Source: Tubulanus polymorphus
Taxonomy: Eukaryota > Nemertea > Palaeonemertea > Tubulaniformes > Tubulanidae
Direction: 5' to 3'
NCBI RefSeq assembly: GCF_964204645.1
Contig: NC_134028.1
Location: 24,094,153-24,154,152 of the forward strand
DNA: 60,000 nucleotides
The notes under the pieces are model-generated. The model was not told the DNA's origin and made no database searches. It saw only the letters and a list, made by a program, of their open reading frames with translations. Made by a program: the position numbers and the translations under genes. Positions 585-32,740 of the stretch are shown here, piece by piece (position 1 is the stretch's first letter; every line of letters starts with the position of its first letter).

Positions 585-872
585 TGTCTGTTGTTCTACC
601 CCATTAGGCGTTACCGATTGACATGGTTGAGTTGTAAATGGTTGTTGTTGTGCTGGTTGTTGCTGAGAATCCGTTTTGACGACGGCGAACGGAGGCGGCG
701 CTTGTTGCTGTTGCTGCGGTTGTTGCGGCTCGGCGACGACCGACTGCGGTGGCGCCACCGACGCGGCGGCCACGGCTGCCGCGGCCGCTTGTGTCTGTTG
801 TTGGAACGCTTCTTCGAGTCCCGGCGTCGGGAACTGTTGATACGTTGGCGGCATCTGATTTTGCACCATGTG
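585..872 (-). CDS. Common coding exon, Gln/Ala/Pro-rich; possible RBFOX-like N-terminal region
   Basis: An internal coding exon of 288 nt (96 codons), phase 0 at both ends. The acceptor is a T-rich tract ending TTTCAG directly before CAC-ATG-GTG; the donor is ACA|GTAAGT. The peptide reads H-M-V-Q-N-Q-M-P-P-T-Y, then an Ala run (residues ~28-37), Gln runs (~49-56, ~69-77), and ends N-G-V-E-Q-Q-T. There is no folded domain; this looks like a disordered low-complexity N-terminus. The M-V-Q start, the F-P-T-P-G stretch and a phase-0 end at Q-T resemble the N-terminal exon of vertebrate RBFOX1/2, which precedes the RRM. RBFOX proteins are nuclear/cytoplasmic RNA-binding regulators of alternative splicing that bind (U)GCAUG. 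The RRM would be encoded beyond the window edge. Another Gln-rich RNA-binding or transcription protein is possible. The exon itself is near certain; the family assignment is about 50%. Confidence 0.72.
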
Positions 873-3739
873 CTGAAACGAAAAAAAAATTAACGAAATT
901 CAATATAGGATGATAGATCACTGATTAGGAACTATCAATACGCCCTATACGACGTACGAGTGTCCGTCGTAATAAACTGAATTACTCGTAATAAGATAAA
1001 GCCAAGATAGAATTATCGTCCCGTTTATAGTTTGCGAGATCGTTTCGCGCAAAAATCGATATCGTTAAAAATGACCACGAACCATCAGTCCGGAATGAGG
1101 GTCGATCTTCGAGAAATCCATCATTCTGTTTTTTAGCGGTATCGTTTATAGCTCGCGTGAACTTCCGATCAGGCGCGCGTCACACGAGATACGAAATAAC
1201 TTCCTCAATCGACGAAATAACAACCAACGGTAAATAAATTTAAAAAAATGACACGTCCGCAAAGTCGGAAAGCTTTGACGGCGACCGAATTCACGATCGG
1301 ATTCTTCGTACGATCAGCTTCTAATCAAGAGACGGGAATGCCGATACTGGGACAGTTTCAGCGCTCCGGTTTTTACACATAACTGATGACAATAACGGGT
1401 AACATAATCCTATTGGCTGGTGCCACATGAGGGATGTAATTACACGGCTAATACTACTGCAATTAGGCAATGTTAAGTGATTGCAGAATGGCCTGCATTA
1501 ATAATTTGATGGCTTCGTTCGTCACGGGGTCATAAGGGACCCACATCTGCCAACCGGATGGATACATGTATATACATCTATATACAGAGATACAGTGTAT
1601 TAAAAACTATCAGGAGATGATCTTAATCCGGGGCTGCTGCAAAAAAGACTAATTTATTACATAAATGCGACCCACGTCAGGAAGCAAAGTCCCCGCCGAG
1701 GTTAATTAGGCATGTACTCGAAATCGTCGCGGAATTAAAACATATTTTTGATTAGACTAATTGCGCATCTTTTCATCGGCATTTAGCGATATATATATAT
1801 TCATATTCATCGTTATAAGACAGTTAATGACAACGACGACGTCCCGCATCCACTTGAAAAGATTATACTAGTAGATAACAATCGACCCCTATCTCTCGAC
1901 TGAAGTTTCTAGCACAATCGTGTCAGAAAACGATGAGGATGTAAATCAACTAGAAATAATTGATACCGAGTATCATAAGTATATTCAGTATTACCGATAA
2001 AATGTTTCGCCCGATACAAACTCAAAACCAGTCATCAGTAACCACAGGGTTCTTACGGGTTCCCAATTTCATTTTTTCCATTACTTCTCCATATCCAGAG
2101 TACCGGTATGAATTTTCCATACCTCCCTAGTTACATACTTCCGACCTAGAACAGGTCCATTCAAAGTAAAAAGGTGTGAATGTCATCGACAAAGTGTTTT
2201 TGTGAATTAGTTTTATCAAATGTATAGTTAGACATTTATGGCCTAATTTTCAAAATGGAAGAACTTTATTTTGAGACTATTTTCCGTACCTATTCCACAG
2301 CCAGAAAACAAAAATTCCTGGTTTTCCAGGTGCAGGAAAAAATTTCCTATCCAAAATTTTCAAAGACTTTCTAAAACCAGTAAGAACCTTGTAACAACTT
2401 TGTATCAATTTATAAATGATTTTTTGACGAGTTAATAGTCCATTGTTTTGCGTAAATAGTTCTTTTAAGGATGCACGATTTTACGCATGTATTTTTGTAT
2501 ACACCAAACATAGCAGTTTATCACCGCGCATGTCCAGGCACTGGAAATTATACGGTAACATGATATATTATTTGTTGCGTATAAATACATCTTACCGCGG
2601 ACAAAGGACAAAGAGGGAAAAGATAGATCTAATAGGGCATTCTCAGAAACGTTTTACCTGCCGCGAAGTATATTTAGCTTAAATGCAACGATAAAATCGA
2701 TAGACGCCACTAAACTATTCAACTTATTATGAACCTGCGGGCGTCGTGCGTTTTTGAATATACCAGGTTCTCAGATATACCCGGGGTTAGATATAAATAT
2801 AGAAATACTATCACGTCGCTTTACGTCGTCGACGCTTTCTGAAAAATTCCAGTCTAAACACAGGGCGTGTTTTCATTTCTGGCGCTTTAAGGCTTTTAAG
2901 GCTTTAAGGAAGAACATCTGACGATTGACGCTCGATGTTTTATGGAACTCTTCCAGTTTTTTCGAAAAATAAAACGCTATCCGCGTTCGACTAAAAAAAA
3001 AAAAGGCAAACAATATAATCCCCGAAAACTAAGCGTTAAAACATCTCATAAATTGTGTAAAACATAAGAAGTTAAGACGATCTTAAAGCTGACTAAGTAA
3101 GCAAGCGGTCTTAAAATCTGCTACTACCTAGCATTACGAATAGAAGAACAGCCTGTAAACAACTGTGACGTGGAGAATAGATAATAAATAAGTTCAAAAC
3201 GCGCTATATACAAAATTTAAAAGATTGAAAATGAAGGCGATGATCTCTAGTGCGAGTTCAAAATGTCGTGTTTCAAATTTGCAATTCCACATTAGCTTAT
3301 CCCAAAAATTCTACATTTTTTCGCAGGCGTTGAATAATTCATCAAAATTAATTTTTGTCGTTTACATTATTTTTGGTAAAAAAATTCGCTTTTAATCTCT
3401 AAAATTTTGTATATAGTGGGTTTTAAGCCGATTAGCACGACGACATTCTAATTACGGGACACCGAAATTACGAGTGAACATTAAAGAGCGGAATAGCCGC
3501 GGTAATGATTTGTTCGTCTCTTTCACGATCTGTCAATGTTCGCGATGTTTTCACGTCGCGACTTACACGGAAGATTAGATGTCTCCTCGATGCCGTACGA
3601 CAAGAGCCACCGAAGGAGTCGGGATGCTAATTACATCAGACGAAACTCAAACGACAGAAGGTCGAAACTTGATCCGTATAATACACGAGCAAAATGATGT
3701 GAAACGCAATGAAACCGGAGCAGTGATTACCTGCCGACG

Positions 3740-3812
3740 ATTCAGGCCGTGACCAAATGGGCACGAATCAGTCCCAGAGTCAAATTCGGCCCGTGCCAAA
3801 TTAGGTTTTGGA
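3740..3812 (+). repeat. Fragment of repeat family A
   Basis: The segment contains diverged versions of the GGGCACGAATCAG and GGCCCGTGCCAAATTAG motifs found at the left end of complete family A copies such as 18218-18499. The right half and both terminal inverted repeats are missing. It is old and truncated. Confidence 0.45.
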
Positions 3813-6800
3813 CAAAAATTCTGCTAGGGTTCCTGCACTAAATAATCTACTTAATTCCACGGACTACTTTCCAAATCTTCCCCAACTCGAAATGTCTACA
3901 ACTTGCCAGATTTCTAGGGAATTTCAACGCGCGTGATAAGATCGTTAGAGGCCAAGAAATAAACAAAGACCAGAAAACATGAAAATATCATTACACCAAA
4001 AAGTTCCATGACTTTCACTGACTTACGCAGTAAGGAGCTGAAATTCCCTTCAAAGACCAAGTCCGAGTTCCACGGTCTTGAGTTAAGAGTTGTATCTGTT
4101 CATTTTCTACGAGTTAGCTCAAATCTCGACTCGGAAATATAGAACTAGGTCCTGGACAAACTACTTTAGAATTACCCGATATTCTGAGATAAATGCGAGA
4201 ACCATCTTAAATACGCCGCCAGTTAGCGCAAAGAATAAAATCCCAGCTCAATAATTCAATAACAAGAACTACAGACCTCTACAGTCTCCGAGAGATTTCC
4301 ATCTACCGGAATAATGAGGATTTTTTTATCCGTCGTAGTCGTAGTTATCAGAGCCTGTTCTTTATCCATCTTAGTTCGGCGCGCGTGATTGTAACTACAC
4401 AACTTTCCTTTTTCATCGAAGTCGTATATACACGAAAAACACACAAACACACGCATCAAATTATAACCACATCGATGACCTTGTCACGCTATAAATTTCG
4501 GATAATTTTCATGACAAAAAACGCTTCGGAATAATTCGAGCGTCGACCGTTTCACGAAAATAATCGTCGCAGCGACACCGACTCCTGACGTCTATACGAA
4601 CGCATAGAACAATAGATATATATATATATCAAGCTGAAGCCTATTTAATAATAAGTGAGATCGCGGTGGAAACACCATCATTAAACATTCATAGAAAATG
4701 TCTTGATTTTATAGCCATACGTCGTATATGATAGCCCTGCAGCCCCGGTCGGTCGTCATAACCCTGCGTCAATTTCGAACACGTGAAACTATTTATTTTT
4801 ATTATCTACTTTTATAATTATCTCAGCGTTCGGATTAAGCACACATGTATGTATGTATGTATAAAAGATCGGCAAAAACCTCCTAATGCATAATTTCTGA
4901 TTCCGTGTTTATTAAGCCGAAAATGATCTAATAACGCGTTCGTCCCAAAGGAAATCATCGTACGACGGAAACCGAGCGTATATGCGTGCGGCGAAAATCA
5001 GGGCGAATCCTTCACCGATGAGTTTTGAGAAAGTAGGTTTAAACTGATTTAGAAGGTTCGAGTTTGGACCAGCAGGCACGCGTGGCGTGTATGTACTAAC
5101 ACCGTATACCAGTTTATACAACATAGATTATACACAATACAGCAAATACCTTGAGCCAAAATCTATTTGGTATAAGTAGCATTTTCCCTGTAAACTCCCG
5201 ATTATTCAGTCACTGGTTAAAATGACACAATTCCCGTCGAGCGTGTACGTCCTCGTTCATCGGAGCGACGACATTTTCATCATCTCTCTGAAAGTCTTAA
5301 CTGCTACAGCTGCTTCTTCGCCGTTTATAGAGGGCTGGTCTATTGATTGGAGTGAGGGGAGAGACGACAGATGCAGCAGCAGCAGCGGCGGCGGTGGCGA
5401 CGGAGCTAGAGAGAGAGAAATCTCAGCAGCACCGCGAGTAAGCGACACTGCTGCACAGCTTGTATAACAGTGACACCTGAGTCGTAATCATCGTCAGCCC
5501 GCTACTCAAATTCAGATTCACATTTTACTTAGATATCAATACTACCTCATCTCCTACTAACTCTTCATATTACACCTTATCGTCAAACGGATGATGACTT
5601 TCTCGAGTTGTTGATCCGATTTCAAAGAGATTAAAAGCCAGCCCGCCCGATGGTGTAATCAAGCGACAAGATTCTTCCGGTTACGTATTTAGCTTATTTT
5701 AGCAATAATCCCAGAGACAGATAGATATAGGATAGTTTTTAGCAGAACGAAAGGCTCCATTATCCACAAAAGGATACATATTCAGCTTATTAGAGAAAGA
5801 ACCCCAGAACAGAAAGAAAATCCTTCACTAAAATAACCGATTCATATAGTATCATTATAGTATAGTAGCATTTAGTTTCTAGTAGTAGGTGAAGCTCTAT
5901 TATCCCTGAACGGCAAGAAAGACTTTAACAACGATATATCAATTTATTGTGGAAAGTTCTCGTTAGTTGGTAGCAGTAGAATACCAGATAGTTTGTTACG
6001 TATAACTTCGATAAATTCAATGAAGAATAAATCGAGATAAGACGGCATCGATGAACAACACCCCTTAAACCGGTCAATGGATGTGTCCACTCGAGTTTAC
6101 TCGTATTATAATCATCGGAGATCGTATCGTTTTCGGGGCCTAAACCTTCAAATACCGAACAATCGAACGGACGAAGTTCGACTTATTCTGGCTTTTACCC
6201 GAGAACATATGTAGAAATTTGTTCAAAAGCGAAATAATGGGATTGAAGCAAATCGGTGGAAACAGTACAACACGGCGCAGCTCGCATCATCCGAGTCAGT
6301 CTCCGCATGTGTGTGTGTGTGTGACACTGTAATAAAACCATTGCTATGGCAACCAACTCAAATTTACCATCAACATGATGATCGGTGGCTTCGACGGATA
6401 TTGTAACAGTTTTGTTGTACGTGTACTTAACATTAATGACAACATCGATGACAGCGATAATAACTGAACTAAAACTAACCATTTACGTTATTATTATTAT
6501 GAGCGCACGCGCACGCCACGGGATTTGCTGACTTATCTTAACAGTTTCAGAATATTGATTACGCTTCTGGTAGAAATTTAATTTAGTCCCAGGTTTTTTA
6601 GCTTTAGCTTCACTCATTACTGCCCAAATCAGTGATTTTTAGGCTTTTTCTGTATTAAGAGTATGGTCCTCGTGATAGGTGGGGCGATAGTAGCCAAATA
6701 TCCGGGGTCGTCTACCGATAGATTCTTGATAGATTGAAATGTTACGCGTCAAACTCTTAAACATAAAATAATTGAAAAATTTATACTAGATTGCTTAGAG

Positions 6801-7314
6801 CTAATTGTTGGATTCTATTAGAAAGAAAATCTCGATTCATAGTATATTCACTCTCAAATAGTAGTCGTAGTCAGTTCTGGAAACTCAATAAAACTTGATA
6901 AAAGTGAATGTAAACCAATGATCAACACAATAATAATTCCCGATTTTCTGCGGCCGAGGCTGTACAGAATGTCATTCCATAAATTGGATCATCAGTGACA
7001 GTTGTCATGGCAACTGAACATATTACACGTCTGCAGGGAATTCTCAGATTCTATCGATAGAAGCAGACGCGCGAATCACACGCACCATCTATCCACATTA
7101 TCAGAAACTAATACCGAACTGATGGAAAGAATGGAATTTCTTTTCTGTTTATTGTTTTTCGAGTGATTCTATGCGAGTATCTAGGCCAGGTGGTATCCAC
7201 TATAAACATATAAACCCTGAAAGTACATTTCCATCTATCGCATAAGATTATAGCAGGCCATATACCAATGTATTATGACAAAACGATAGCTGAATTATAG
7301 AAATGAAAATATTT

Positions 7315-7760
7315 TCAAAACATCTGCAAACTATCGACATGTTTGCTAAATTACTTAAAAACCATCACTGATAAACCATAATCAATGAAAAATAAACAGG
7401 GTACCACAGAATCACCAATTATGTACTTCGATTTAAACAAGAAATTATGTAAACTTGACCGCCGATCACACATTATCTGTACTTCGCTTTCCGATTTCAA
7501 AATTAAACCCCCTGTTTCATCTGTGGCAGGTGAGTAAGGGACACTTAATCAAAACAAGTCAAATAAAATCTTCCAACCAAGATAACCACCTAAGTTAATG
7601 TATCTATGACTACAATTGTTCAGTACAGATTTTTTGGAAACAGCTGCGACCAATCGACATGTTTGCCATGAATTACTGATCAATCATAATTAACAAAATA
7701 AGCAAGTTACCTTTTCATTAATTGTACCTTTAAGTAAATGTTAGAATCTGATACAAATAG
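7315..7760. repeat. Diverged direct duplication, two copies about 320 bp apart
   Basis: Segments 7315-7440 and 7640-7760 share an ordered series of words: ATCGACATGTTTGC, then AATTACT, CATAATCAA/CATAATTAA, ATAAACAGGGTACC/ATAAGCAAGTTACC and an ATTATGTAC/ATTGTACCT region. They look like two diverged copies of one unit of about 120 bp. No terminal inverted repeats or ORF are visible, and the origin is unknown. Confidence 0.45.
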
Positions 7761-9365
7761 CTTCCTATTAATCGATAATTACGTCGAATAATTCTAGCGA
7801 GGCATCTCTAAATATGACAAGCGTCAATCATCTGATGAGTGTAGATATTATTTTAGCTAACATTACCTGAAGAGTGAACTGCATCGCGGAGATCTTCGGA
7901 GATCTTTTCTATTCGTTAAGAAAACAGTCAGCCGTTCGACGACGCGTTACTGGGGCAGTTATAGCAACTGAATGTCAGAGGATGCAAGGAGGGTAAATAT
8001 TACTACGTGCGCATCCTAAAATGTTTTTGATATAAATCTATCGGAGGTATTGAAACTGTACACCGCGCTATCTTCACGAAGCATATGTCTAAACACCTCT
8101 CGTAGGACAGAGGTGAGATTATTTATAACCTCTCCCCGAGATAGAGTCAGTTAGTGCACACCCCTTTATCATCTCTTCTTCAGGAACAGTTTTACGCTCA
8201 CCGTGTGTATATATATATATATATATCAATCGCGAGAAATAAATCATCGCAGCAGCAAAAAATGATATGCGCACTTTTAACTATTTTCGTGGCTGCCACA
8301 AGAAATAAAAACACAAACAGCAGGAAACACTGTCCGTATTACCTGATTCTAAGTTAATTTTTCCCTTAGTTTGTATCACTTCTGATAACTTGATTAGTCC
8401 CTATATATAAAACTTGTCTCTTTGTTCTGGATTCTATATATATTTCATTATTTCCGTTGTAACTCTCTCTCAGTATTGCTGAAGAACGTTGAATGAACTA
8501 AACTACTAGCTCAAGGAAACATTTTCAGACTACATCTAATTTTTTCTTTAGTTAGTTCAATGGTTTCAGCTATATTCTAAATGTCATCTACATATATAGG
8601 AATACTGGATATGGTATGAAGATGACTATCAGGATTTAGGTCAGACGTCAAATGAACTTTTACTACCACAAAAAACATTTTGGACATTTTCATGTAGGAT
8701 TTTCTATATAATAAACCCGCAGATTTCATCTGAAATAACTGTTGAAAGTTTCTATAGAAATCCACAATTTCGGAATCACCGGATTATCTTAAGACTGAAT
8801 CCTAAAATTCTACGATCACAATACACGCGGATATATCCATCAAGGTTGAAATATAGATATTATTCGCGATTCATTTTACGTTGTAAACATGACCAGACAC
8901 AAGTCAATTTGATTACGATTTCACCCCAGTACATCAGATAAACAATTTACTCAAATCAGTGAATTTGTTTTCATTTCTTATTTTACAACCGACTGCATTA
9001 TCTATACACAACACCCAGCACAGGTTCAGATATACTGAAGATGTCCAGGTGCAAGCCAAACCGCGCAGACTGAACGCGCGATTTCATAAATCCACGCAGA
9101 ACTGAACAGCCAACGATGCATAAATATTCTGGTATCCCATAGGATGTAAACTACCGCGGCGGCTATATATAAAACTAAAAGATTTATATTCGACAAGAGC
9201 CGTGGAACATCTCAACTTGGATCAAGGGTCAGATTATTGAAATACCACCCCTCACTATCTACCAGCAGTAAATGGCTACCTACTGATAGGTAAAGGAGAT
9301 GACTGTAGCAGATAGGATACATTTCTAGCTGGGAAAATCATTTTTATTTGAATGGTAGATTACTA

Positions 9366-9550
9366 AGGGGCGGATCTAAGGGGATGTGCAATCCCCCCCT
9401 GAAATATTTCTAAAAACCGATTCCTAAAAATTTGAAAATCTTATCTGAAAATGAGTTGATGTTTTCCCGATGATGAGTTTTCTTACATAAGGGGCTGCTG
9501 GTGCCCTTTTAATTCTAACAATGGGTCGACCCCCTCCCTGAATTTGATCC
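9366..9550 (+). repeat. Probable degenerate copy of repeat family D
   Basis: It begins AGGGGCGGATCTAAG, the same terminal sequence as the better copies at 13718 and 45412. A GACCCCCTCCCTGAATTTG-like block near 9530-9550 resembles the family's right end. The interior does not align well, so it may be deleted or a different subfamily. Confidence 0.35.
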
Positions 9551-9674
9551 AAGCTAGCTCCACTGAGAGCATAAAAAATAATCACCAAGCCTAAACCAGA
9601 CTTTAAGGAATTTCCAGATCTAAAAATCAATTCGATTAAAACAGCCACCATTAATTTGAGAAAAAGTATTTTCA

Positions 9675-9771: not shown

Positions 9772-9790
9772 TACCACCGTGTATATTTAC

Positions 9791-9934
9791 CAGGGGAATT
9801 TGTCCGTTAATCTGCTGTTGATGATGATGATGATGATGATGAGGCTGAGGTATGCGAATAAAAGATAAATGCGGAGATTGTCCGGGCGCTGGATGCGAGG
9901 TGAATATCTTCATACCTCCTCCAGGATTCATCAT
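9791..9934 (-). CDS. Candidate alternative first coding exon, His/Gln-rich
   Basis: An ATG at 9934 (tandem ATG-ATG) opens 48 codons up to CTG|GTAAAT, leaving phase 0, exactly what the common exon at 585-872 accepts. The peptide begins M-M-N-P-G-G-G-M-K-I, has Pro/Gly/Ser-rich sequence, then seven His (CAT/ATG-type triplet repeat on the plus strand) and Q-Q-Q-I-N-G-Q-I-P-L at the end. There is no signal peptide or domain. If spliced it would give an isoform with a different N-terminus, a pattern typical of RBFOX genes. The His run shows triplet-repeat slippage. The donor is fair rather than perfect (GTAAAT). An untranslated-leader or chance ORF cannot be excluded. Confidence 0.5.
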
Positions 9935-13717: not shown

Positions 13718-13984
13718 TAGGGGCGGATCTAAGAAATTTGGTAGGCCAGTGACCAGAAGAAAAGGCATTTTTCAAATAAAGCAGCCATTTCATAGACTTT
13801 TAAGGAGAAGCCCCACCAAAGTTATTAGATATTCTTTAAGAAATACGTTTGAAATAACAAAATTTCTGAAAGGATAAGTGATAAAGTAGCAGGTTTTAAT
13901 GATCTTTGACTTGACAAAAAGGTCAACCTCAATAGGAAGGCAGGGGTGCGGACCCCAGAGACCACCCCTTTAATCCGTCCCTGA
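13718..13984 (+). repeat. Repeat family D, full-length non-autonomous element
   Basis: The left end AGGGGCGGATCTAAGAAATTT and right end TTTAATCCGTCCCTG form short imperfect terminal inverted repeats. The interior matches the copies at 45412 and 51050: AAAGGCATTTTTCAAATAAA, TTAGATATTCTTTAAG, TTTCTGAAAGGATAAG, GATCTTTGACTTG and CAGGGGTGCGGACCCC. At about 267 bp with no ORF it fits a MITE. Ends of the CAGNGGCGGAT type are seen in some hAT-like families, but I could not find a clean 8-bp target duplication. Confidence 0.7.
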
Positions 13985-15669: not shown

Positions 15670-15715
15670 TATTGATCAGTATGATCACAATTTCTGTGAT
15701 GAAACAATAAATCTC

Positions 15716-16112: not shown

Positions 16113-16286
16113 GTGCAACTCCTCTTCGAGAGGGTCGACAACGAGAAAATACATTCCTCCCAAACTCGGGTAGCAAACATCGACTTTAACCGGATGATAA
16201 AGAGCATCGGGCTGCATGAGGGGATAAGATGACCACTCGATACCAGCACCACTCGCGCCACTCACAGCACTCGTTAGATCGAGCAT
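16113..16286 (-). CDS. Candidate alternative first coding exon
   Basis: An ATG at 16286 opens 58 codons to CAC|GTAAGT, a near-consensus donor, leaving phase 0, which again fits the common exon at 585. An in-frame TGA lies two codons upstream of the ATG, so this is the true start of the frame. The peptide begins M-L-D-L-T-S-A-V-S-G, contains Y-H-P-V-K-V-D-V-C-Y and a hydrophobic G-M-Y-F-L-V-V, and ends D-P-L-E-E-E-L-H. I do not recognise a domain. Upstream sequence (16290-16900) is CpG-dense compared with its surroundings, as expected near an internal promoter. The combination of strong donor, matching phase and protein-like sequence makes this the best-supported alternative start. Confidence 0.6.
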
Positions 16287-16900
16287 CAATCCTCACTTAT
16301 CGAAACCGTCTTGTCTCGGTTAACAATGCGACTGATTATCGCGACGTGAATTCCGACCCGAAACGAAATCGAAACCCTGACTCGGATATATCCAATTTTC
16401 CCGTTCCCGTCGAAATGCGACGATCACGCACGGCGCGTTGAGAGCGTAATCTCAATTAGCGAAATCGTGATTTCGTTCCGAGGCTACGATCATCGACGCG
16501 TGCCAAGTTTTCGCAGCGATCCGCAACAACGGCGACAGACGAAATATCTCGACTATCTTCTATCCAATCTGTTGACATCGTCGAATAAACACTCGCCAAT
16601 TAGCATTCATCGCAGCCGGAAATTAGTCGCACTCGACGATGATAGATTTTTTCGGGCGGTGTTCAACATCGGACGGGCGAGAAGTTTGAGAGATGCGCAC
16701 GTTCGAAACGAGTATTGACAAGTGTCATATTCTAACGCACGCCGCCCGCTCCCTCGCGCAGAATACGACCGTGATTTATGCTGATTGGAAAACTACGAGA
16801 TCAATGCCGTGCATCTTCTTTATTGCATCGTTTCATTTCGAACGCGATTTACATAAAAACGCGATTTAGTTCACGAGACGCGGTTTCAGGACCGAGCCAC
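16287..16900 (-). promoter_or_regulatory. CpG-dense segment, possible alternative promoter and 5' UTR
   Basis: This segment is rich in CG dinucleotides (TCGCGACG, GGCGCGTTG, CCGCCCGCTCCCTCGCG and similar), unlike the AT-rich flanks. It lies immediately upstream, in gene sense, of the candidate first exon at 16113-16286. Several overlapping frames are open on both strands, which is common in CpG-rich sequence. No TATA box is obvious. The promoter call is an inference from position and composition. Confidence 0.35.
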
Positions 16901-18217
16901 AGCGCCGCCCCCTGATACACGCGTTAAGTGGTCGCGAATTCGAAAAATACGACGCCTCGAAAACCAAAACCAATAAATTATTCGTAAATTTCTCGTTTTT
17001 CCAATAAAGTATATATCAACTGAACTTATGACAGTTTGACAGAACTTGGTCAACAGATTCACAAAGATTTCTATCACTGGGAAGACAGTGATATCAACGT
17101 CGTTCGCGATATATATTGCGAGATTTGAATTTCGTTATCGATTATTTTTCTCGCGAGAGTCATCTGATTAAAACTGTCTGCAGTCATCTCGATAACAGGT
17201 GATGCATTACATAGCTCCGTTAATTACACATAGCGTTAGTTTCACCGCTAAAAGTGCTCCATTTAGACGAGGAGAAAGCCTCGTAGATGACTGAAGTACT
17301 TTCAAATAAATTGAACTAGCTTCATTTACGAACACTCCATCAGATCAGCGAAGTATTTACAGTAGATACGTTCTAATTTCGGGACTAGCAAACCGTCAGC
17401 ACAACCTCAATTCCATCCATTTCCCTACTGATTCGAGAAAAAGACCGAACCAGAACTATCTGATAAAAAGAACGCCGCGTATGATCGGAATTGGTTTTTA
17501 CGGAATCTCTCCTGGGACTCGGCGAGTTCCCGGGACTTATGTATTAGAAGTTGTATATTTGAGAATATGCGATAACCGATAGAAACCTTCCTTCATGAAT
17601 CATACACACGAGTATACAGCCTTTTGGGAACGTATTCATTTTCTACATAAAATGCCTGAAGTTGACAGACTGGCGAGATTGGTGCCGGTATTGAAAATAT
17701 CATTACAAAAAGCAAATTAATAGGACTTCGATCTCTAGGTGAAAATAGATATTCCCGGTTACTTTATAGAATCCTCTCGTGAATATATTCATTTTCAACT
17801 CTGCTAGAATAGACGCATTATTCCCAAGGGTGTTGGTAGTTTCAAAGGTTATGGTGTTCATTTGAGGTAAAATTACCTTGCAATCAAAGAAAAATCTTGA
17901 CTTTTTAACCGAAATGCTAGCAGCCATGTTCAACAACTCAAAAAAGAAAAAAATTTATGAAAATGGCTTATAAAATTTGAGTTGAGCTTTTAAGTTTTTC
18001 ATTGATTGTGGGTTTTATCCTTCGACTGAATTAGGCAGTCACATGCCTATGAAAACTAATGAATTACGATGACCATTTTCGTAATATTACAATAATTATG
18101 ATTTTAGGGTCTCCACAGTTTAAAAAGGTTGGGTGGTCACTTTTGTAGGTTAAATCGATTATGAAAAAGTTGAATTATTTGAGCTTCGATCTTGCCAGTT
18201 AGAAATAAATGGACAGT
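16901..18217 (-). other. Intronic sequence, nothing recognised
   Basis: Continues CpG-moderate to about 17100 and then becomes AT-rich. No splice-bounded coding segment or repeat end could be identified. Confidence 0.4.
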
Positions 18218-18913: not shown

Positions 18914-19075
18914 GGGCAGATTTAGGGGGTCCGGACTCCTCTCTTCCCATGATTGGCCCTGCAAATTTGACACTCATATTTTCCGATGTATTTAGAAAAT
19001 CTCTAATACTTGGTCGGGACCCGGCGAGTAGCTTATGACATGGCTGCTTTTATCTGAAAACTGCCTTTTCTTTTC
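18914..19075 (+). repeat. Possible degenerate family D copy
   Basis: CGGGGCAGATTTAGGGGGTC near 18913 resembles the family D start, and GGACCCCGACC near 19080 on a reverse-orientation fragment (CTGCTTTTATCTGAAAACTG) resembles the interior. The two pieces are not collinear, so this is fragmentary. Confidence 0.3.
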
Positions 19076-19099
19076 TTCCGGACCCCGACCTCGCGACAT

Positions 19100-20330
19100 T
19101 CCTGATCGTCTCCTAAAGATCAATCATAATTCATACAGAATTCTTCGGCGAAGTGACAAATACCAGTGACCGAAATCTCGGAAACGGCCGAGAAAGCGCG
19201 ACGGATTTGATACCGCGATTATGCAACTTCATACGCAAAAATGTCGAGAACCGTCGATTAAGTAGTTTGTCATCGTCACCGTTAATCCGGCGTTCATGAG
19301 CAGAAAATACTTTCGGCTCAACGGATCAGCTTAAAAACCCATCATCTATACGTGTGTGAGTACATACGCAGCGCGAGCATGAATGCCCATCAACCACGAC
19401 TCGACGGAAAATACTATCGGAATATTTGGCTCGAGGAGGACGGACTTCAAAACTGCACTGTGTACGGATCATCCACTTCTCCCGATGAACGAGAAGCAAT
19501 ATCCATTACGAAGAAAAGACGAGATTACGACTCGCGATTTCAGAACGAAACCGGGTACCACTAGGGGTGGAAAAGGCTGAATAAGAACGTCGCGATATTT
19601 CCCTAGAGAACCGAGCCGCGCACGCGATACAGATGCCGAGGCTCGAGGAGCCAGAATTAAAGACGGGGAATGAGAAACAAGTACAATATCGACAAGTTTA
19701 TGGCGACGATATCGGATCAGATCACGCGAGAACCGACCGTCGAAAATTGGTGCGCGTAATGAAATACAACCGAAGACGTTCGTATGAGAGAGAATCGTAT
19801 AAATCAACGACGGACGACGCTGTTTTTATGTCAACCGATGACATCGCATTCTCATTTCATGCATCGCGTAACCGATAGTTCAATAGCACGATCTTATCAG
19901 TTGCGAAACGATCGCTAAAGCCTCGTCCTAAACCGCGCCGGCTAAATAACTATCTTCTCAACCGGTCGACAGGACAGTTGTGGAAGGTGCCGTTCAGTCT
20001 TGTCGAATTGATATTTGTTTTTTTTTCGTCGCGTAAAATGATAAATGGACGAATGAACGGCACGGATCGCGAGGGCGGACAACCGGACGTTGGGTGCGTA
20101 GGTTGTAACTATGATCGATGTCTCGTACGCGACGGACAATCGCGCCGAAACTCGCACCGAAAACACGAAGCTGATTTCGCGTCTGATATCTGCCCGTTTT
20201 TCGATCGAAGCCGCGATCTCGGGTCGTCGTAGCCCGAAGGAATTCGAATGCATCTTCTTTAAACGTCGTCACACGTTACGAAAATGGCATTAACAAATCG
20301 CGTATTATGCAAAATCAGTCGACGATGCGG
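19100..20330. other. CpG-dense segment without an identified gene
   Basis: Dense CG dinucleotides and overlapping open frames on both strands (for example 19352-19564 and 19633-19878 plus, 19469-19807 minus). None shows a recognisable motif, and the plus- and minus-strand frames overlap, so they are probably a result of composition. It could be an unmethylated regulatory region or an untranslated exon of the minus-strand gene. Confidence 0.3.
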
Positions 20331-20433
20331 CAAAAAGATTAGATTCTACGCCGAACTATTTCAGCGAACGTCCTAAGGGTGAATTATTCTAAGAAGCTTG
20401 TTCTGGTAGAATACACGGAGAAAAGAATTACAA

Positions 20434-20813
20434 GCCCCGCTCATACGGAGACGATTTGGACCATGAAACTGGCCCGGACCAAAGCCAGAATCAAATTTGA
20501 ACTGTACCTAATTAGAGAGCGGGTTCACATGAAACCTCACTCACTCACTACTACTAAAATACTATCAAAATGATGCTGTTGCAAGTGAGTCACTTCCAGG
20601 ACTGCTAAGCATTTACACCCAAAAAATTTGATCCCAGCTAAAATTTGACATGGGCCGCTTCTCATGGTGGTCGGGCCCGATGAGGACCCATTTGTCACCA
20701 GCGTGAACAGTCGGCCCAAAAGCACGGGCCCATTTGACACCCATGTCAACAGTTGTTCCGGGCCTTAGTTGGCACAACAGGCCAAAAATACCCATGTGGT
20801 AGTTGTGGCTATT
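20434..20813 (+). mobile_element. Repeat family A, long diverged copy
   Basis: It starts near AAGCCCCGCTCATACGGAG and ends near TGTGGTAGTTGTGGCT. It retains TAATTAGAGAGCGGGTTCAC, CTCACTCACTACTACTAAAA, AAGTGAGTCACTTCCAGGA and CAGCGTGAACAGTCGGCCC. It is longer than the other copies because the right-end motif (GGGCCCATTTGACACCCATG) is partly repeated. Confidence 0.65.
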
Positions 20814-20840
20814 ACCTGAATGGTAAAAAAAACTACATGA

Positions 20841-23820: not shown

Positions 23821-23824
23821 CATC

Positions 23825-23912
<88 letters not shown>
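23825..23912. repeat. (AT)n microsatellite, 88 bp
   Basis: An uninterrupted TA/AT dinucleotide run of about 44 units. It generates artificial Ile-Tyr frames on both strands. It is self-complementary and able to form cruciform DNA; such tracts are also length-unstable. Confidence 0.95.
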
Positions 23913-23918
<6 letters not shown>

Positions 23919-24611
23919 CAAAATGTGTTAAAATAGGTTTAATCCACATTGCACCCCTACAACAACGAAGTCTAAAATGTTCAATTGATTTCCACTCCGT
24001 AGAGATTATTAAGGGTAACATGCGATGATCGTGATAAAACGTTGGGACTGAACTCCGATGGTAGTGGTAGAAGTAGTTGTACTAGTAGCTGAAAAGAGCT
24101 GTTTTTCGTTTTTTTTTTGTTAATAATGTTTCGAACATGCAACATATACAATACAAGAACATGCGCGAATCCATTCCAGGCCGATGAACTCGAAAGTCCA
24201 CGGCGTTCCCGAATGGATCAATTCTAAAGCGAAGAACAACGCATCCGCCATCTATCAGATATCATCAGAACTAGATCATCGATTTAGCCCTTTTTTATTT
24301 TGCAAATCGGATAAACTTCAATAACAGTCCCACTATGAACATATCTGTATACATTCTATTGAATTAAGCAGGAATATGAAACTTATTTTTTATATGAAGG
24401 GATATATAGTGCTTAAGCTTATCATTTAGAAGCACTGAAAAATGACAGAATCTGGTGTTTGTCATGTGATCTTAGCTTTTATATGTATATTATCAAAACC
24501 TTATTGGTTGACATTATGTTTCTATGGATAAGCTACGCAGATCAAATTCAAAATCGGAAAAAAGTTTTTGCAGCTGGACTTTGGACAGTGAATCATGGAA
24601 CACTCCTGATA

Positions 24612-24700
24612 TATCCTAACTGTACAGCATCAGTTCACTGGGGTTTGAACCCACCAACCACCTCGCGGTGGTGAGTCAAACGAGCTATCCTGCCGAGAAG
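24612..24700 (-). repeat. tRNA-like SINE head
   Basis: Read on the minus strand, the segment has TAGCTCGTTTG as an A-box-like element and, about 30 nt later, GGTTCAAACCC, a good B-box, flanked by a short T-stem (GGG...CCC). The pol III promoter layout is that of a tRNA, but no full cloverleaf with a matched acceptor stem closes. A tRNA-derived SINE head is therefore more likely than a working tRNA gene. The SINE body would extend toward lower coordinates. Confidence 0.4.
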
Positions 24701-27437
24701 GCGCATTGGTAGTTCACAGCAAGGAAACGTCAGTAGCAGCTGCGATAGATAAAAATAAATCAATAATCCATAGAAATAAACAAAGTTGGAACAAAATGTA
24801 GTCACAACTTTACGCGTCGGTCATAGTTAACACAAAATTATTGAAAGATCCTATCAATGGATTATTCGTAATACTGACAGGCCATTCAAATCAAACCAAA
24901 GATCAGCGTGATTGAAAGATCGATTTACTGCGATACGGCTGTACGGAAATACTGATAGATGGCGCCGCGGTTTCGTTTTGAAAGATACTTTGAACAGCGG
25001 CTACTTACTTACATGACGACTGAACGGTACATCTTAACACCTGTGCAACAACCAAAATGACAACTTATTCATCCAATAAACAAAACAGTTACAAACGCAC
25101 AAATACGAATACGAATACGTATATTCAATTGAGGATATAAAAAGTAAAGTAAACACCTAGAAACCCCCTGAAGCGACAACAAAGTATCACGATTTTCACG
25201 ATCGTAATAAAAGATGCGCATGCAAAAATCACAAAATGCCAAACGATATTCGTGAACAAACAAATTAGCCACATTTGATAAGAAACCTCGATGAAAATTT
25301 TGATTCCCATTTTCTTAAAGTCATCCATAACCAAGTATATATGTCTTTTTAGACTTTCACACCTTACTAATCACGTAGCAGATACTATGATCACGTGTCT
25401 GATGAAGAGTAATTAATGAGAGTAATGAAAAACTTTTCATAACTTCGTCATTTATTACGATTCTCATTTTCATCACCTGGGAATCGTTAACGTATCGTAA
25501 AAACGCTGCGCGCGCCGCCGTATTTCGGATATCCCCGACTGATCGCGTCGAGAGCCTATTTATAACCGATATAGCACTTTTTGATGGGCTAGTCGCGGTT
25601 TCATTTACGAGTTCCCTCAATTCCCTCGGCCCCCGAAATTACAACGGCGTTGATATCCCCGGATAGGCCGGGATCAGCTGGCGTGAAATGATTTTTGATG
25701 CGGCGAACGTAGCACGTATGGTATCACGTTGTTCTTCCAGTTGGTCGCGTACTCGTTTATTATCACATCCAATCAAACGTCTGCTAATAGCGCGGTATTC
25801 ACTCCTCAAGAATTTCTTTCGAACAGCATTTCTTTACCGCGAGTTTACATTCATGATACATCGCATCAGAGACAGCAGTTAAAAAGGTGATTTAATAACA
25901 TTTTCCTCCCACCCCCCACAATACTCTCCCCCTCCCCTGGAAGCCATGGACCACATATCTGCATTAATTTTAAAATAATGCAACACTGCAGTCAATGGCA
26001 TCATTATCATCATTCCTGCCATATCAGTTTTGTTGCAGGGAGTAGAATCATGCGAACTTGAAACTTTGCCAAGCGATGTATCATTGCACTGGCTTTATAT
26101 CTGCAACAACACATCTCGATTAAAATATCTGTTCTTGTTGGATAAGTTGATCCAAAATCATCGTCCATGTATTCAGCACCCCCTGGTGGTGGCCAAATCA
26201 AATCATGCGCCCTCGAAAAATTTGCGCGTTAAAATGATGAAGATTGTCGAGAAACGCTGCGATATTAACCCCTGCTCTTCATTCCGCTCGGACGGGATAA
26301 TGTATGACCTCGGGTGGATTGCATATCATATCATAGCGTAATCATTTTTCAGGCATGATCGTCGTTGTTTGAGAGGTTTGATCGTAAAAGGATCCACACG
26401 GATGGCTAGAGCAAACACTGTCTATGAATCGATGTTCGATGCAGCAGTACTCTCTCCATCTCTCTCCATCTCGATTGTGTCACCATCTACAAAACCATCT
26501 TTGATGCGCTCGTGTACGTTTCTTTTTGATGTCTGATGTAGCGGAGGAATTCTTATACTCCCCGATACGTACAAGGATTGCGCACAATTACAGATCATTT
26601 GACACAGGACGGGAGATACGCATAGTTTTCCGATGACACGACCGACCGATGAAATTCGCCAGACGGATTTCGATCTTTTTTTTTCGACACCGAAATGCGC
26701 TAAAGATGATTCAGAGACGAGAACATCCTCGTCGTTATTTATCACAAGGTGTAATTCTAAACCGTCTTCAGTTGTGAGTCAGATCATCGTCGGTCGTTTC
26801 GCGAATGAAACGATTGAATTGTATAAATCTTTCAGCTATTTCCATTTGGATAATTGTTTTTGCATAATTCATGGTTAGAATTCAAGAGAAAAGACCTATT
26901 ACAATATAGCGGTCTTTCCGCCCATTTACATACAATGTAGGCCTATATGCGATGAATCTAATTGTTGTTATATAAACAGTTAAAAAGCATATTAAATATG
27001 TCACCATATGAAAACTCTTCACAGCTGCAATATTCTTAGATATCATATAATATATACCTAATCGATAAATTCCCCCATTCAAAATAAAAAATAACGGCAA
27101 ATCTGCTAGCTCGAAAACAATATCAAAGAGAAAATAATTCAACTTAAACAATATAGCCCGAAGATGACTTCATCAATTCGTTATACATATATCGGCTTTT
27201 AATGAAATTTTCCGATAATCATCAATGGTTGTTTGTGCGCATCATAAAAATATTACCGACAGCGATAAGTATTTTTTTCAAGAATAGGGTGGGGACCCTT
27301 TATTTCATCCCGAAAAATGAATTATGGAAGAGACGCTTCGAATGTATGAATGTGTAGATATGTTCAGTAAGAAAGGCATCAGTGCTGAAGACAGTGGGTT
27401 GGATGATTGACGCAGCATTGTTCTGATAGACACTTAC
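24701..27437 (-). other. Intronic sequence, no gene recognised
   Basis: Two CpG-richer stretches (25500-25900 and 26380-26800) hold overlapping open frames on both strands with no recognisable motif. A GTAAGTAAG donor-like site near 25010 is preceded by a CACAG acceptor-like site, but the enclosed segment does not keep phase 0. Confidence 0.35.
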
Positions 27438-27473
27438 CCGCAACACGTGCATCCTACTTCGGGTATCAATCAT
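27438..27473 (-). CDS. Candidate short alternative first coding exon
   Basis: An ATG at 27473 opens 12 codons, M-I-D-T-R-S-R-M-H-V-L-R, ending CGG|GTAAGTG, a strong donor, in phase 0. An in-frame TAG lies eight codons upstream. A very short N-terminus ending L-R before the common exon is reminiscent of the vertebrate RBFOX1 start M-N-C-E-R-E-Q-L-R. Because so few codons are involved, the open frame itself carries little weight; the support is the donor and the matching phase. Confidence 0.35.
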
Positions 27474-28982
27474 AACAAAATGAGTAAAAACCTAATCCCA
27501 ATGATGTCATTCGAGTAAATATGCCGTATTTTTGAACGTCGTATGTCCGTGTCGCGTATTCCCTCAGTTTACAATGATCTGTTCCATTGATCACTCCGTC
27601 ACTCTGTCCTATGCGTACCATGTGCGCACATGTGGTCGAGGCGTTCGCGGATATTCGTATGATTCGATCGATTTTACGATGATGTCCCGAGCGTTAAAAT
27701 AACTGAAACAGCTGAACTCAATCGGTATCGCCGGTGCAGTGAGCATCTGTTATACCTGCCTCGAAAGATTTCAAATCCTTCTTCGGATAATCTACAAAGT
27801 AACGTTGTTTGCTAGTATTTTCTGTGGTTGGAGGGAAGTACATTTTAGTGAGTTCATTTTTGTGAAAGCGGAACTGCCACTCATTGCGGAGATTCTAGAA
27901 GGCATTTTGGGGGCCCAATATAATGGTTCTCCAAATTTCTCTTTCTTGGGGGGAGAGTTCACGTGAACCATGCTACATCCCACATAGTTTTAGGGCTGTA
28001 TGACTTGTGGTTGCACGAAATGGTTCTATATAATGGCCTCAAAAGGTGTAATAATTAAGAAGCCAAAACCAATACTGCAATAGAACTAATCCACTTGTGA
28101 CACAGGTTGAGGTTGCATTTGCCTGAAATAGGCTCTTGGAGAAAATTTCTGAAAATTTCAAGAATTGTTGCTAATCAAATAATACCTGGTGACTCGAACG
28201 TCGTTAGACTTGTTTTTAAACAGCAAAAACATGTAAACATCAAGCGCTTCAGCGACTTATTGCGCGAGTTTAAATTTCAAATTAGCGATTTCGGATTCTC
28301 GACGTTTTCGCATCAAAGCGCGCAGCTAGAACGACGACGGCTAAAATGAGACAAGCCGCCTAATTTTTTCACTTCATTAGACCCCGCGAGACAGACTCGA
28401 GGGAGAGACTGCGGAAAAACATCAATCCACATGGAAAACAAAGTCGGAACAATTTCTAGGTCATCATTGATCGACGACCCGTTATATCCCAGATTTTGGA
28501 CAGGTGCGATGACGAGAACAGATTCAGTTTGGGGATGCCTATCTGGGTTAAAAATGATTCCTACTGAATCTAGATCCTAGTATATGACATAAGACGGCTA
28601 TTTGAATCGCATTACGACCCCCGTACTGCTTGATTCCCCAGCGGTTGTTAATAAAATATTCCTATGAAACTTTATTGAATTGTTGGAACAGATGTCGTCA
28701 GTGGTAGTCCCGCAATAGCATTTGATCCGAGCTAGCAAATAGATTCAATTTGTGCAGCTAGATATATAGAATTCAATTAAGGTGGTGCTCGCGATATACA
28801 TTACAGACTATATGATTAAACTGGCAGAGACTCGGCGCACAATAACACAGTTTCCTTTTGAACATCCACAATCACCACCGCAGTGGTTCACCGGGGAGGG
28901 ATTCAGCCTCATTTTCTGAATACTGCTCAGTCCAATAACATAGCAACACATTTCAACATTTTACTGGCCCCATTTACAATCT
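27474..28982 (-). other. Intronic sequence, nothing recognised
   Basis: No repeat ends or splice-bounded coding segment. A plus-strand frame at 28107-28349 is open but has no motif and no splice partners. Confidence 0.4.
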
Positions 28983-29052
28983 AGGGCCAGTTACTCAAAA
29001 TTAAGTTTAAGTTAACCAGTGGATAGTTGACATCGTGACAATTTAAAGTTCA

Positions 29053-29162
29053 GGACCCAGTTCCACAGTTGTGAGTTAAGATTTGACCCTGAGTTAAAAC
29101 ATTGAAAATGAACTAATTTTAACTCAGAGTTAACTCTAACTCACAACTGTGGAACTGGATCC
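29053..29162 (+). mobile_element. Repeat family B, copy 1 of a head-to-head pair
   Basis: It begins GGACCCAGTTCCACAGTTGT and ends TGTGGAACTGGATCC, with internal TTGACCCTGAGTTAAAACAT and TTAACTCAGAGTTAACTCTA. It is nearly self-complementary along its whole length, and of the same orientation as the copy at 49827. Confidence 0.8.
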
Positions 29163-29163
29163 A

Positions 29164-29273
29164 GGACCCAGTTCCACAGTTGTGAGTTAGAGTTAACTCT
29201 GAGTTAAGATGAGTTCATTTTCAATGAGTTAACTCAGGGTCAAATTTCAACTCTGAACTGTGGAACTGGACCC
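29164..29273 (-). mobile_element. Repeat family B, copy 2, inverted
   Basis: It begins GGACCCAGTTCCACAGTTGT and ends TGTGGAACTGGACCC. The interior is the reverse complement of copy 1 (GAGTTAACTCTGAGTTAAGA then AACTCAGGGTCAAATTTCAA). One base separates it from copy 1. Confidence 0.8.
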
Positions 29274-29539
29274 AGTGCTATTATGGTATTTATCCGCTGG
29301 TTATCTTTAACCAACTATTGAACAACTGGCCCCAGAACATTTGTGGCGACATCATATCTAATTCTCCACGCATCTAAAATAAGGGGATCTTTTTATAATT
29401 GAGTTTTTTTCACCAATGAGTATTGCTCAAGTAGTAATGATGATAGGTTGGATCTGTTTTAGAAATGAGTAGAAAAATACTTAGACTGTTAATACACCCA
29501 CACATCAACAGATCTATAAAGACTTACTAGCAGCAAGTA

Positions 29540-29841
29540 TAAGGCTGGTTTTCCACGAGACGTGGAGGCGGGGACGGGCGTTGCGTTTCCACAAAACGGG
29601 CAGACGGCGGAAATTATTGCGCGGTGTTTCGAGTCTTCGCTGCAGCGGGGCCGGTTTCCGATTTCATCACATTTCGAGAAATGTCTGCGCTCTCCGTGTT
29701 ACATCGAGGTATTCTTGACATCCGGGGTTTAAACGATACCACGCGGGCAGCAAGCAGGTGCAGGCAGAGCGATTGGGAAAAAACCGTCCGCGCTTTCCAC
29801 CCGTTCCACAGCCACACCCACAGAGTGGAAACACAGCTTAG
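29540..29841. mobile_element. Probable non-autonomous inverted-repeat element
   Basis: The left end TAAGGCTGGTTTTCCACGAG and the right end CAGAGTGGAAACACAGCTTA form imperfect inverted repeats of about 16 bp. The interior is more G+C-rich than the flanks and contains a second TTTCCAC/GTGGAAA-type pair (CGTTTCCACAAAACGG, CTTTCCACCCGTTCC). No transposase frame is present. Confidence 0.5.
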
Positions 29842-30666
29842 GGGAAATATGTGGGATCGATTTTTGTTTTTTTAATGGAAAACCAGTCTTACGAGTGTTT
29901 GAAATTATGGGTTCGAAGAAAACATCTAAGGGATCAATTCTTTAAAAAAAAAAAAAAAAAATATTCAAATATTGGCTGGAAAAGCTTTCGAAGCGATGAT
30001 TATGTAACTGCTTCTGTTGATTATCGTTTCTGTCGATCGTTTCTAATAAGCTTATCTCGAAAAAACACCGTCTGCTCGCGACGACGGATTGAACATCTCC
30101 GACGCTTCTTAAGACCGATCTAAGTAGACATCTTATTCCATCACCGGATTCATACCCAGTTTAGCATTTATCTAATAAGGCGTGAACGCTTAGCGAGATC
30201 GCATACACGTTCACAGTACAACCGAGTGTTCGCTTGAATGACTCGTACAGTAAGTGCAAAGTTTTCATCGTCGTCGTCGTCCGCGCTGAAATCGATGTGC
30301 TACGTCAAGATGGAGTTATGAAGCAGCAGCAACGAAAAAAAAAAGAAAACAATATCGGACGACGATAATGATATCAATTGCGATGGCCATGTGTGGTATC
30401 AGCCGTATCGTGGTCAATATTTCGAAAGATTGATTCTCGGTGATGTGGATTGCGATCGTTTTGGCCGAGCGGTCGCGCGCGGGTGATGATCGCTGTCACG
30501 CTATGATCTTATTTCCATTTCCGGATATTGACCGGTGATGAGCAAAAAAACAAAGAACCGGTCGAATGTAAGATGAATGTCCCGACGCAGGCGGTGGAAA
30601 TCTGTCCATCAGTATTCTATGAAAGGAAATGATTTCCGGTTTTGTTACTCGATAAGACTTAAAGTC

Positions 30667-30835
30667 CGACAGTATCAAGCGGCGATCACGCTTCATAATC
30701 TAGAACGTTCTAAATCTAAGCCGTTCCAATTTAGTACGGACCAAACATATCGCATTAGCAAAATTAGTCCGTTCTCAATCAGCCCGTTCCATTTCAAATT
30801 TTTCAGGCCTCTCTAAATTATAGAATGGACCATTT
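30667..30835. repeat. Degraded repeat with GTTCC/GGACC motifs
   Basis: It contains AGAACGTTCTAAATC, CCGTTCCAATTTAGTACGGACC, TTAGTCCGTTCTCAA, CCCGTTCCATTTC and TAGAATGGACC, in a pattern like 41110-41282 (GAACGGACC, GGTCCGTCCAAATTGG, GATCCATTCTATACCGG). It is probably an old inverted-repeat element family with unclear ends. Confidence 0.4.
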
Positions 30836-30849
30836 CTGTGCGCAAATAT

Positions 30850-31164
30850 AAGCCGCGATCACACGAGCATTTTTGGCCCGGGACAACTGTTCACACGGGT
30901 GCCAAATGGGCCCGAACCTGTTTGGCCCGACAAAAAACGTCGGACCAGGCCCGAGTTTAATTTTAGCACCAGACAAATGATTGCGTTTGAATTGCGACTG
31001 GCACCGGAAATGATCCACTTTGCTTTGTTTGAGCATTGTTGAGTATCAAGTGAATGGTTTGCGTGTGAACGCGCTTTCTAATTAGGCATGGGCCAAATTT
31101 GGCCCAAGTCTGATCCGTGCCAATTTGGCCCGAGCCAAATCTTCTCCGTGTGATCGCAGCTTTA
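30850..31164 (-). mobile_element. Repeat family A, complete copy, reverse orientation
   Basis: The ends are AAGCCGCGATCACACGAGCA and CCGTGTGATCGCAGCTTT, clear inverted repeats. The reverse complement shows the family motifs: TTTGGCCCGAGCC, GCACGGATCAGAC, TAATTAGAAAGCGCG, CAAACCATTCACTTGATACT, TTGTTGAAACAAAG-type and GGCCTGGTCCGACG. About 315 bp. Confidence 0.8.
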
Positions 31165-32707
31165 AACTTACAATCAATCAATATATTGCTGCCTCCAGCT
31201 GGACCAGCAATAACACCTGATTTAAAAACGCGCGTCAACGCACTGCATTAATTTGGTCCCTTCTAAATCGGTCCATTCCGGGTATGAGCCAAATTAGGAA
31301 GGACTAACCGGTGATAGTGTGAACCCCAGGCAGTGTCAGCCGGTCCTACAACAGCAATCTTAAGAAATTCAAATAACATATTCTGCGAAGGTTCGTGACA
31401 GCTCAGATCAAAGCGTATTCAATCATACCTCGGGACAGAATTCAGAAGAAGCAAGGCTTTAGCATGTCCCAATATATACATTAAGTCTGTCGAGGATATC
31501 GTCAAACATATCATTAATTTGATTCATTACCGGAGATTAGTTCTACTAGTTTTCAAGCGTCGTGTTCTCGAAACTAATGTTTTTCGCGTCAGAGCCTCGG
31601 GACACGATCCGACCTTCACTGCCTCAGGAAGATGCGACGAGCTTAAAATGCTTTTTATGATCGCCGAAGAATAAATCGAAATTTGTAAACCGTTACACCG
31701 AGATATTTCGAGTGCTCGTGACTCTAAATAATGGCGCGTACGGCTTTCTAGCTCTAGACGATAGGGTTCATTAGGTTTAGATTTAATAGGGGAAGGACAC
31801 AAAGTCGTCACCAAAAGCGAGTCGAGCTAATGATTCAACCGAGGGTTATTAATCCGACATGTTTCAGATCGATCGAACTCACAGTAATAAACGTCATCGA
31901 GTTCGAAGTTATCTTCTCGATCCGGTGAAAATGGACGACGCGCTAGTCACCCCCGTTATATTGTCCCATTGGTTCGTATAACTTATTTAGCCAAATTGTA
32001 TAAATGGCTTCACAACGAATTCGGCGTCGCTGAAAATAAGATTACAATCCGCGGCCTCTGATCGAAGTGAATGGGCTAAACGCAATCAAAGACTCCGAGA
32101 ATTGAATTAAACAACGACTCTCGCGCGCGCCTGTCGCTGGTTTTTATATCGATCAGTCGACTTCACCCCGATACCAATCACGTTATCACGAGTCCAAATA
32201 CGACAAAAACAAGAGACCGCTGCTTTTGAAGGATGACAAGAAAGAAAGAACCAACGGAATCTTAAAGATCTTAATCCTCAAACTACTAATACATTGGTTT
32301 ATAAACGTAGATATCAGACGGAGAGAGAACACTACAATAAACTAAGTTGGCCTAACAGTAAAGATAGGATTGTGCATTCGTAAAGTGCCTTGTAAAAATT
32401 AGAAATGTTTCAAGATGTCCATCAAATAAATGTAATTCCAATTCCAGAATTGTCGAAAAGCTAAAGATATATTTCTAGTATTTTTGGAATCAACCGTTTT
32501 AGTCATTCAACAATTGTGGAATTTTACATTCGTTGTCATCACGGATATTGTGATATTACTGATTCCTGTCGGGAGAGTCAGTATAGAGGAAGGAGTAGTG
32601 AACACCACACAATGGTTGCAGCTGGGGCTTAGATATAATCGTATAAATCTCGATTAAATGTTTACTTTTTTACATTGATTATCTAATAACAAAATCTGAA
32701 TATCTAC

Positions 32708-32740
32708 CTTGGTATCGTTTACATCCGGGGAGCCGCGAAC
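32708..32740 (-). CDS. Candidate 33-nt coding microexon
   Basis: On the minus strand a long pyrimidine tract (TTTTTTTTCATTTCTATTTT) ends GCAG, then 33 nt, then AAG|GTAGAT. The 33 nt read in phase 0 as V-R-G-S-P-D-V-N-D-T-K with no stop, so the microexon could be included or skipped without frame change before the common exon H-M-V-Q. In vertebrate RBFOX1/2 the segment just before M-A/V-Q reads like R-G-N-Q-E...P-D-T/A, so R-G-S-P-D-V-N-D-T-K is a plausible counterpart. It has no initiator ATG in frame and needs an upstream exon. Microexons are characteristic of neuronal splicing. The splice sites are good; the homology is an inference. Confidence 0.5.

Follow-up and report, generated by a model that had tools for sequence, protein, structure and literature searches.

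The question raised by this locus is where the N-terminus of an RBFOX protein comes from in a ribbon worm, and how many first exons supply it. The stretch analysed, referred to below as the window, is 60,000 nucleotides of Tubulanus polymorphus, a palaeonemertean (contig NC_134028.1, positions 24,094,153 to 24,154,152), and coordinates are counted from its first base. The original prediction read its minus strand as the 5' half of an invertebrate RBFOX-like gene in which four separate upstream segments, at 9791-9934, 16113-16286, 27438-27473 and 32708-32740, are spliced in phase 0 to a common exon at 585-872. The analysis reported here agrees with the gene and with the exon, and does not bear out the four segments as a set of RBFOX leaders. 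Very probably, what the minus strand holds is the 5' part of an RBFOX gene, made up of the shared exon and a leader 210 bp upstream of it, with the shared exon likely also entered from distant first exons.

A protein database was searched with the 16113-16286 segment joined to the common exon, the query being lengthened with X to allow matches to full-length proteins. Among 4077 candidates the sole match was P0001, a Tubulanus polymorphus protein of 412 amino acids annotated as RNA binding protein fox-1 homolog 2-like isoform X2; no protein containing the 16113-16286 segment was found among them. Residues 15-114 of P0001 are identical at all 100 positions to the translation of 872-573 of the minus strand, and residues 1-14 (MMDFSKIDPHSGLM) at all 14 to that of 1124-1083, which bears out the prediction that the 5' part of an invertebrate RBFOX gene lies on this strand inside the window. 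P0001 has a single fox-1-type RNA recognition motif (RRM), seen both in a precomputed PF00076 assignment and as KRLHVSNIPFRFRE...NERGSKGFGFVTF in the sequence; on the mapping just given, the RRM exons are outside the window, beyond position 1. The N-terminal region is one common to annotated fox-1 homologs, a MVQNQ-type exon start being present in 115 of 120 relatives (108 with a leader in front of it and 7 without). The relatives, here and below, are the best 120 of 4125 RBFOX matches, and many are isoforms or near copies (Mytilus, oysters, scallops); all the organisms named among them are, we take it, lophotrochozoans.

At least one first exon is therefore joined to the common exon, in the database protein model P0001: this runs from 1083-1124 to the acceptor at 872. 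It is absent from the original prediction and, judged by the mapping, is the only leader exon with independent support. Its donor, ATG/GTTCGT, is weak (score 3.2 with the donor matrix used throughout), which puts it out of reach of any search for strong donors. Donor strength was accordingly dropped as a test of leaders, since the supported leader and the donor at 573 both score just 3.2.

The common exon accepts phase 0 as predicted. It follows the acceptor tttcgtttcag/CAC, opens with His-Met-Val-Gln, and stays open for 96 codons as far as 585. The predicted end at 585 was right in that a donor, ACA/GTAAGT, is present there (score 6.9), and wrong for P0001, which leaves at 573 and so adds VSNR; the protein evidence from T. 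polymorphus is for this long form only. The two donors are 12 bases apart and both are in frame. We consider 585 likely to be a conserved tandem alternative donor, which would itself be coding when skipped, because related proteins exist with and without an insert at EQQT. Between EQQT and the QTDL-type residues, nothing is inserted in 45 of the 120 relatives; in 50 the insert starts with V followed by R or S, 14 carry a different insert, and for the other 11 the site could not be parsed. Forms with and without the insert occur within single species: Haliotis asinina (P0018/P0057), Mytilus edulis (P0066/P0086) and Ylistrum balloti (P0034/P0040). By the genetic code, a GTNAGN donor translated in phase 0 always gives Val and then Ser or Arg. 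The choice between 585 and 573 would omit or include Val-Ser-Asn-Arg, with Val-Ser being the upstream GTAAGT read as codons.

The common exon also has a start codon of its own, at 869-867, and because of this a first exon may be non-coding or out of frame. For the same reason the agreement in phase, on which the original prediction leaned, is weak evidence: 7 of the 120 relatives begin at this codon. The positions of all these features are collected in the table. As a separate observation, made with autoregulation in mind since RBFOX (fox-1) proteins are splicing regulators that bind (U)GCAUG, TGCATG occurs 13 times on the minus strand and 8 times on the plus strand; no copy is close to the leaders, and one lies 0.4 kb beyond the common exon on its downstream side.

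Features of the RBFOX 5' region and the candidate first exons, in window coordinates
Feature	Position	Strand	Basis and remarks
Common RBFOX exon, long form	573..872	-	Identity to P0001; donor AGG/GTTTGT at 573, ends ...EQQTVSNR
Common RBFOX exon, short form	585..872	-	Inferred tandem alternative donor ACA/GTAAGT at 585, ends ...EQQT
Internal start codon of common exon (MVQNQM...)	867..869	-	Sequence; 7 of 120 relatives begin there
Intron between P0001 leader and common exon, 210 bp	873..1082	-	P0001 mapping and GT...AG ends
Coding part of P0001 first exon, MMDFSKIDPHSGLM	1083..1124	-	Donor ATG/GTTCGT; 14/14 identical to P0001 residues 1-14
CpG-rich block (890 bp) over P0001 leader and common exon	521..1410		9.4 CpG per 100 bp, observed/expected (o/e) 1.76; promoter presumed
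Less clear candidate for a first coding exon, 48 codons with a His/Gln run	9791..9934	-	Composition; no protein match
Candidate alternative first coding exon, 58 codons	16113..16286	-	Donor CAC/GTAAGT, CpG block, composition; no protein match
CpG-rich block (870 bp), overlapping and immediately upstream of 16113-16286	16171..17040		10.8 CpG per 100 bp, o/e 1.96; possible promoter
12-codon ATG segment with strong donor, likely chance	27438..27473	-	Donor score 11.1, strongest of the four
11-codon acceptor-to-donor segment without ATG, likely chance	32708..32740	-	

The other element of the prediction, several leaders feeding one phase-0 exon, is borne out as an architecture in this clade. Of the 120 relatives, 108 have a leader in front of the junction H-[MV]-V-[QP]-x-Q, and between them these show 65 distinct leaders of 1 to 157 residues; a further 7 begin at the Met of MVQ, and 5 are built otherwise. 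Mytilus edulis alone has five leaders and a bare MVQ start (P0061, P0063, P0064, P0065, P0066, P0091). In the RBFOX isoforms of Lineus longissimus and of molluscs (P0002, P0003, P0010-P0120) the leader joins H-M/V-V-Q/P-x-Q at the same place as in the nemertean gene, and a variable insert likewise follows EQQT, whereas their leader peptides have no above-chance match in the window. P0001 itself is the same as the window over residues 1-114 (leader 1083-1124, exon 573-872) and differs from what was predicted in having none of the four segments and in using donor 573 rather than 585. A multi-leader port in this gene is thus supported by analogy with its relatives, and not proven. As to two or more first exons in T. 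polymorphus, one leader is seen in the protein database, and 16113-16286 is a candidate.

With the relatives' leaders as queries, none of the classes MAE..ENKEN, MLLT.., MMWP.. and MMWIP.. was found in the window, the best tblastn match other than P0001's own leader having E = 0.04 and containing a stop. A junction-anchored leader search gave a best score of 25 on the minus strand, lower than the 28 obtained on the plus strand. An open reading frame at 1546-1463 on the minus strand (MWVPYDPVTNEAIKLLMQAILQSLNIA), 0.4 kb above the supported leader and following an acceptor-like AG, has an MWVP start; it was rejected as a member of the MMWIP class, as 140 of 300 peptide shuffles reach its score and the sole phase-0 donor that keeps the motif before the stop is weak.

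Two further observations concern the relatives' proteins. The two Liolophura sinensis proteins P0011 and P0012 are distinguished, ahead of the H junction, by an insert that contains MVWVPV; it looks as though an MMWIP-type leader could double as an internal exon. In P0001, P0002, P0018, P0047, P0058 and P0070 the part of the RRM that separates LLG from FG is not constant: it is absent, or is Q, VE, VEQQ, VSPNH or a long insert, suggesting that one exon junction within the RRM is alternatively spliced.

Turning to the four distant segments, all of them read back. Those at 9791-9934, 16113-16286 and 27438-27473 each start with ATG and stay open up to a phase-0 end, at GTAAAT, GTAAGT and GTAAGT, respectively. 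The one at 32708-32740 is open, begins after an acceptor and ends at GTAGAT; having no ATG, it is not a start. ATG-led phase-0 segments ending in GT[AG][AG][AG]T were then counted over 873-60000 of the minus strand and in 100 dinucleotide shuffles. There are 18 segments of at least 12 codons against a shuffled mean of 18.3 (58 of 100 shuffles reach 18), 8 of at least 30 codons against 6.1, 3 of at least 48 codons against 2.0 (31 shuffles reach 3), and 1 of at least 58 codons against 1.1 (60 shuffles reach 1). Acceptor-to-donor segments like 32708-32740 number 3, against a mean of 1.3 (14 of 100 shuffles reach 3). The trap is a general one: in 59 kb of intron-rich sequence, chance yields about 18 phase-0 'first exons' that open with ATG and reach 12 codons or more. 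A protein database search with all four segments gave no match at E up to 10 (142 candidates).

It is hardly credible, on these results, that all four segments are alternative RBFOX N-termini. They are all open, end in phase 0 and lie on the right strand, and multi-leader RBFOX genes do exist in the clade; but the counts are at chance level, none of the segments has a protein match, and 32708-32740 has no start codon. The resemblance of this last segment to a long leader, a score reached by 7 of 200 shuffles (one of five peptides tested), was rejected: among all phase-0 donor segments, scores this high turn up in three cases on the plus strand, as against two on the minus strand.

A different reading, which we regard as an even bet, is that the gene is RBFOX and that only the 1083-1124 leader is used in the window, possibly together with unseen non-coding first exons, the four segments all being chance. 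The agreement of the segment counts with shuffled sequence and the want of any protein match speak for it, as does the comparison of strands at moderate donor scores, where donors scoring at least 6 with at least 11 codons number 17 on each. Against it, the strands differ at scores of at least 8, where the minus strand has 7 donors and the plus strand 3 (1 and 0, respectively, if 40 or more codons are required, the one being that at 16113). Genes of bivalve relatives show four to six starts each, and 16113-16286 unites a strong donor and a protein-like composition with a CpG-rich block that adjoins it.

The segment at 16113-16286 is the best of the four. Its donor is the sole minus-strand donor scoring at least 6.5 within the block 16171-17040 or in the 250 bp below it, and this block of 870 bp resembles the one of 890 bp (521-1410) that spans the supported leader. 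Its composition was compared with that of 318 candidates from locally shuffled sequence, and was reached by 4 of them (0.013) using general amino-acid frequencies and by 9 (0.028) using leader frequencies. Counting against it, the T at -3 of its ATG makes a weak start context, and GC-rich sequence holds fewer stops. It is plausibly an RBFOX first exon with its own CpG-rich promoter, at a confidence somewhat short of even. The CpG-rich block and the open reading frame might instead belong to another transcript, a nested gene or a non-coding RNA, which we think unlikely: 16113-16286 lacks protein similarity to RBFOX leaders, and similar CpG-rich blocks occur elsewhere in the window, but its strand and phase fit RBFOX, and Pfam recognised no other gene in the ten open reading frames tried (of 99 listed, or pieces near them), giving two sub-threshold matches and nothing above the cut-offs. 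An Rfam search of the window gave nothing at gathering scores.

The composition of 9791-9934 is reached by 50 of the 318 shuffled candidates (0.157) with general frequencies and by 12 (0.038) with leader frequencies, and so beats random open reading frames less clearly than 16113-16286 does; as an RBFOX first exon it is correspondingly less plausible, and rather doubtful. For 27438-27473 there is no support beyond its donor, with the segment count at chance level and no protein match. This segment and 32708-32740 are likely chance, each being very unlikely as an RBFOX first exon.

A number of points weigh against the view that the minus strand is an RBFOX 5' end with a shared exon entered from several places. 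Residues 115-412 of P0001 have no significant match in the window (next E 0.83), and P0001 is a database protein model at the level of an isoform. One T. polymorphus cluster was found (6 members, 90% identity), with a single leader; no T. polymorphus protein with another leader was found in the protein database searches, which work on clusters of 90% identity, so that an isoform inside the six-member cluster of P0001 could stay hidden. The 16113-16286 peptide has no resemblance beyond chance to known leaders (157 of 200 of its own shuffles reach its score). The CpG-rich block beside it is one among many, the window having 18, of which 4 exceed 800 bp, and the longest of them, 19051-20460, has no minus-strand donor scoring at least 6.5 within it or in the 250 bp below.

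With these points taken into account, an RBFOX 5' end with a shared exon, a nearby leader and likely distant first exons is still the explanation that we prefer. On this view, every promoter would give rise to its own first exon, spliced from its donor to the acceptor at 872. A first exon with an in-frame ATG would add a leader peptide to the RBFOX N-terminus, and one without would let translation start at MVQNQM. More tentatively, and clearly below an even chance, lophotrochozoan RBFOX may have a plug-in N-terminus, consisting of a phase-0 His-Met-Val-Gln port, a fallback start, a tandem donor (GTRAGN, read as Val-Ser/Arg) and fast-changing leaders from separate promoters, in which 16113-16286, 15 kb upstream and with its own CpG-rich promoter, would be a nemertean-specific leader.

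Other features of the window are as follows. The CpG-rich block 19051-20460 (1410 bp, o/e 1.87) is accompanied by a strong plus-strand donor at 20584, and is possibly the promoter of another transcript or a non-coding first exon. A further block of more than 1 kb, 54341-55420, contains a strong minus-strand donor at 55162 (CGG/GTAAGG, score 10.2) and could hold a non-coding first exon. There is a tandem array at 58759-59276 (60-bp unit, 8.6 copies, 87% matches). Dispersed repeats at 13812-13983, 45515-45686 and 51129-51300, and inverted arms at 30921-31098 and 41885-42062, are probably remnants of mobile elements.

Literature searches on molluscan, nemertean and bivalve RBFOX, covering its N-termini and isoforms, gave no paper on the subject, most subscription journals being outside the coverage of the search, and we found nothing on first exons in the available part of a paper on Drosophila Rbfox1 (PMC8742874). 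A study of mouse Rbfox1 (PMC7214753) describes alternative first exons E1A, E1B, E1C and E1D, which are transcribed from alternative promoters and feed shared downstream exons. Most had been thought non-coding there, whereas E1A, together with exons 2 and 3, codes for 92 additional amino acids of low protein conservation at the N-terminus (PMC7214753). The nemertean gene fits this kind; the mouse gene differs in spreading its first exons over hundreds of kilobases and in their being mostly thought non-coding, and the comparison is one of architecture and not of leader homology (PMC7214753).

The anatomy of the RBFOX 5' end described here fits known RBFOX biology, in a little-studied phylum. 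It is now placed in a nemertean, with the supported first exon corrected. If the distant leaders are confirmed, coding alternative RBFOX first exons, as described for mouse (PMC7214753), would also be found in ribbon worms, and the leaders would be seen to change quickly while the junction stays fixed.

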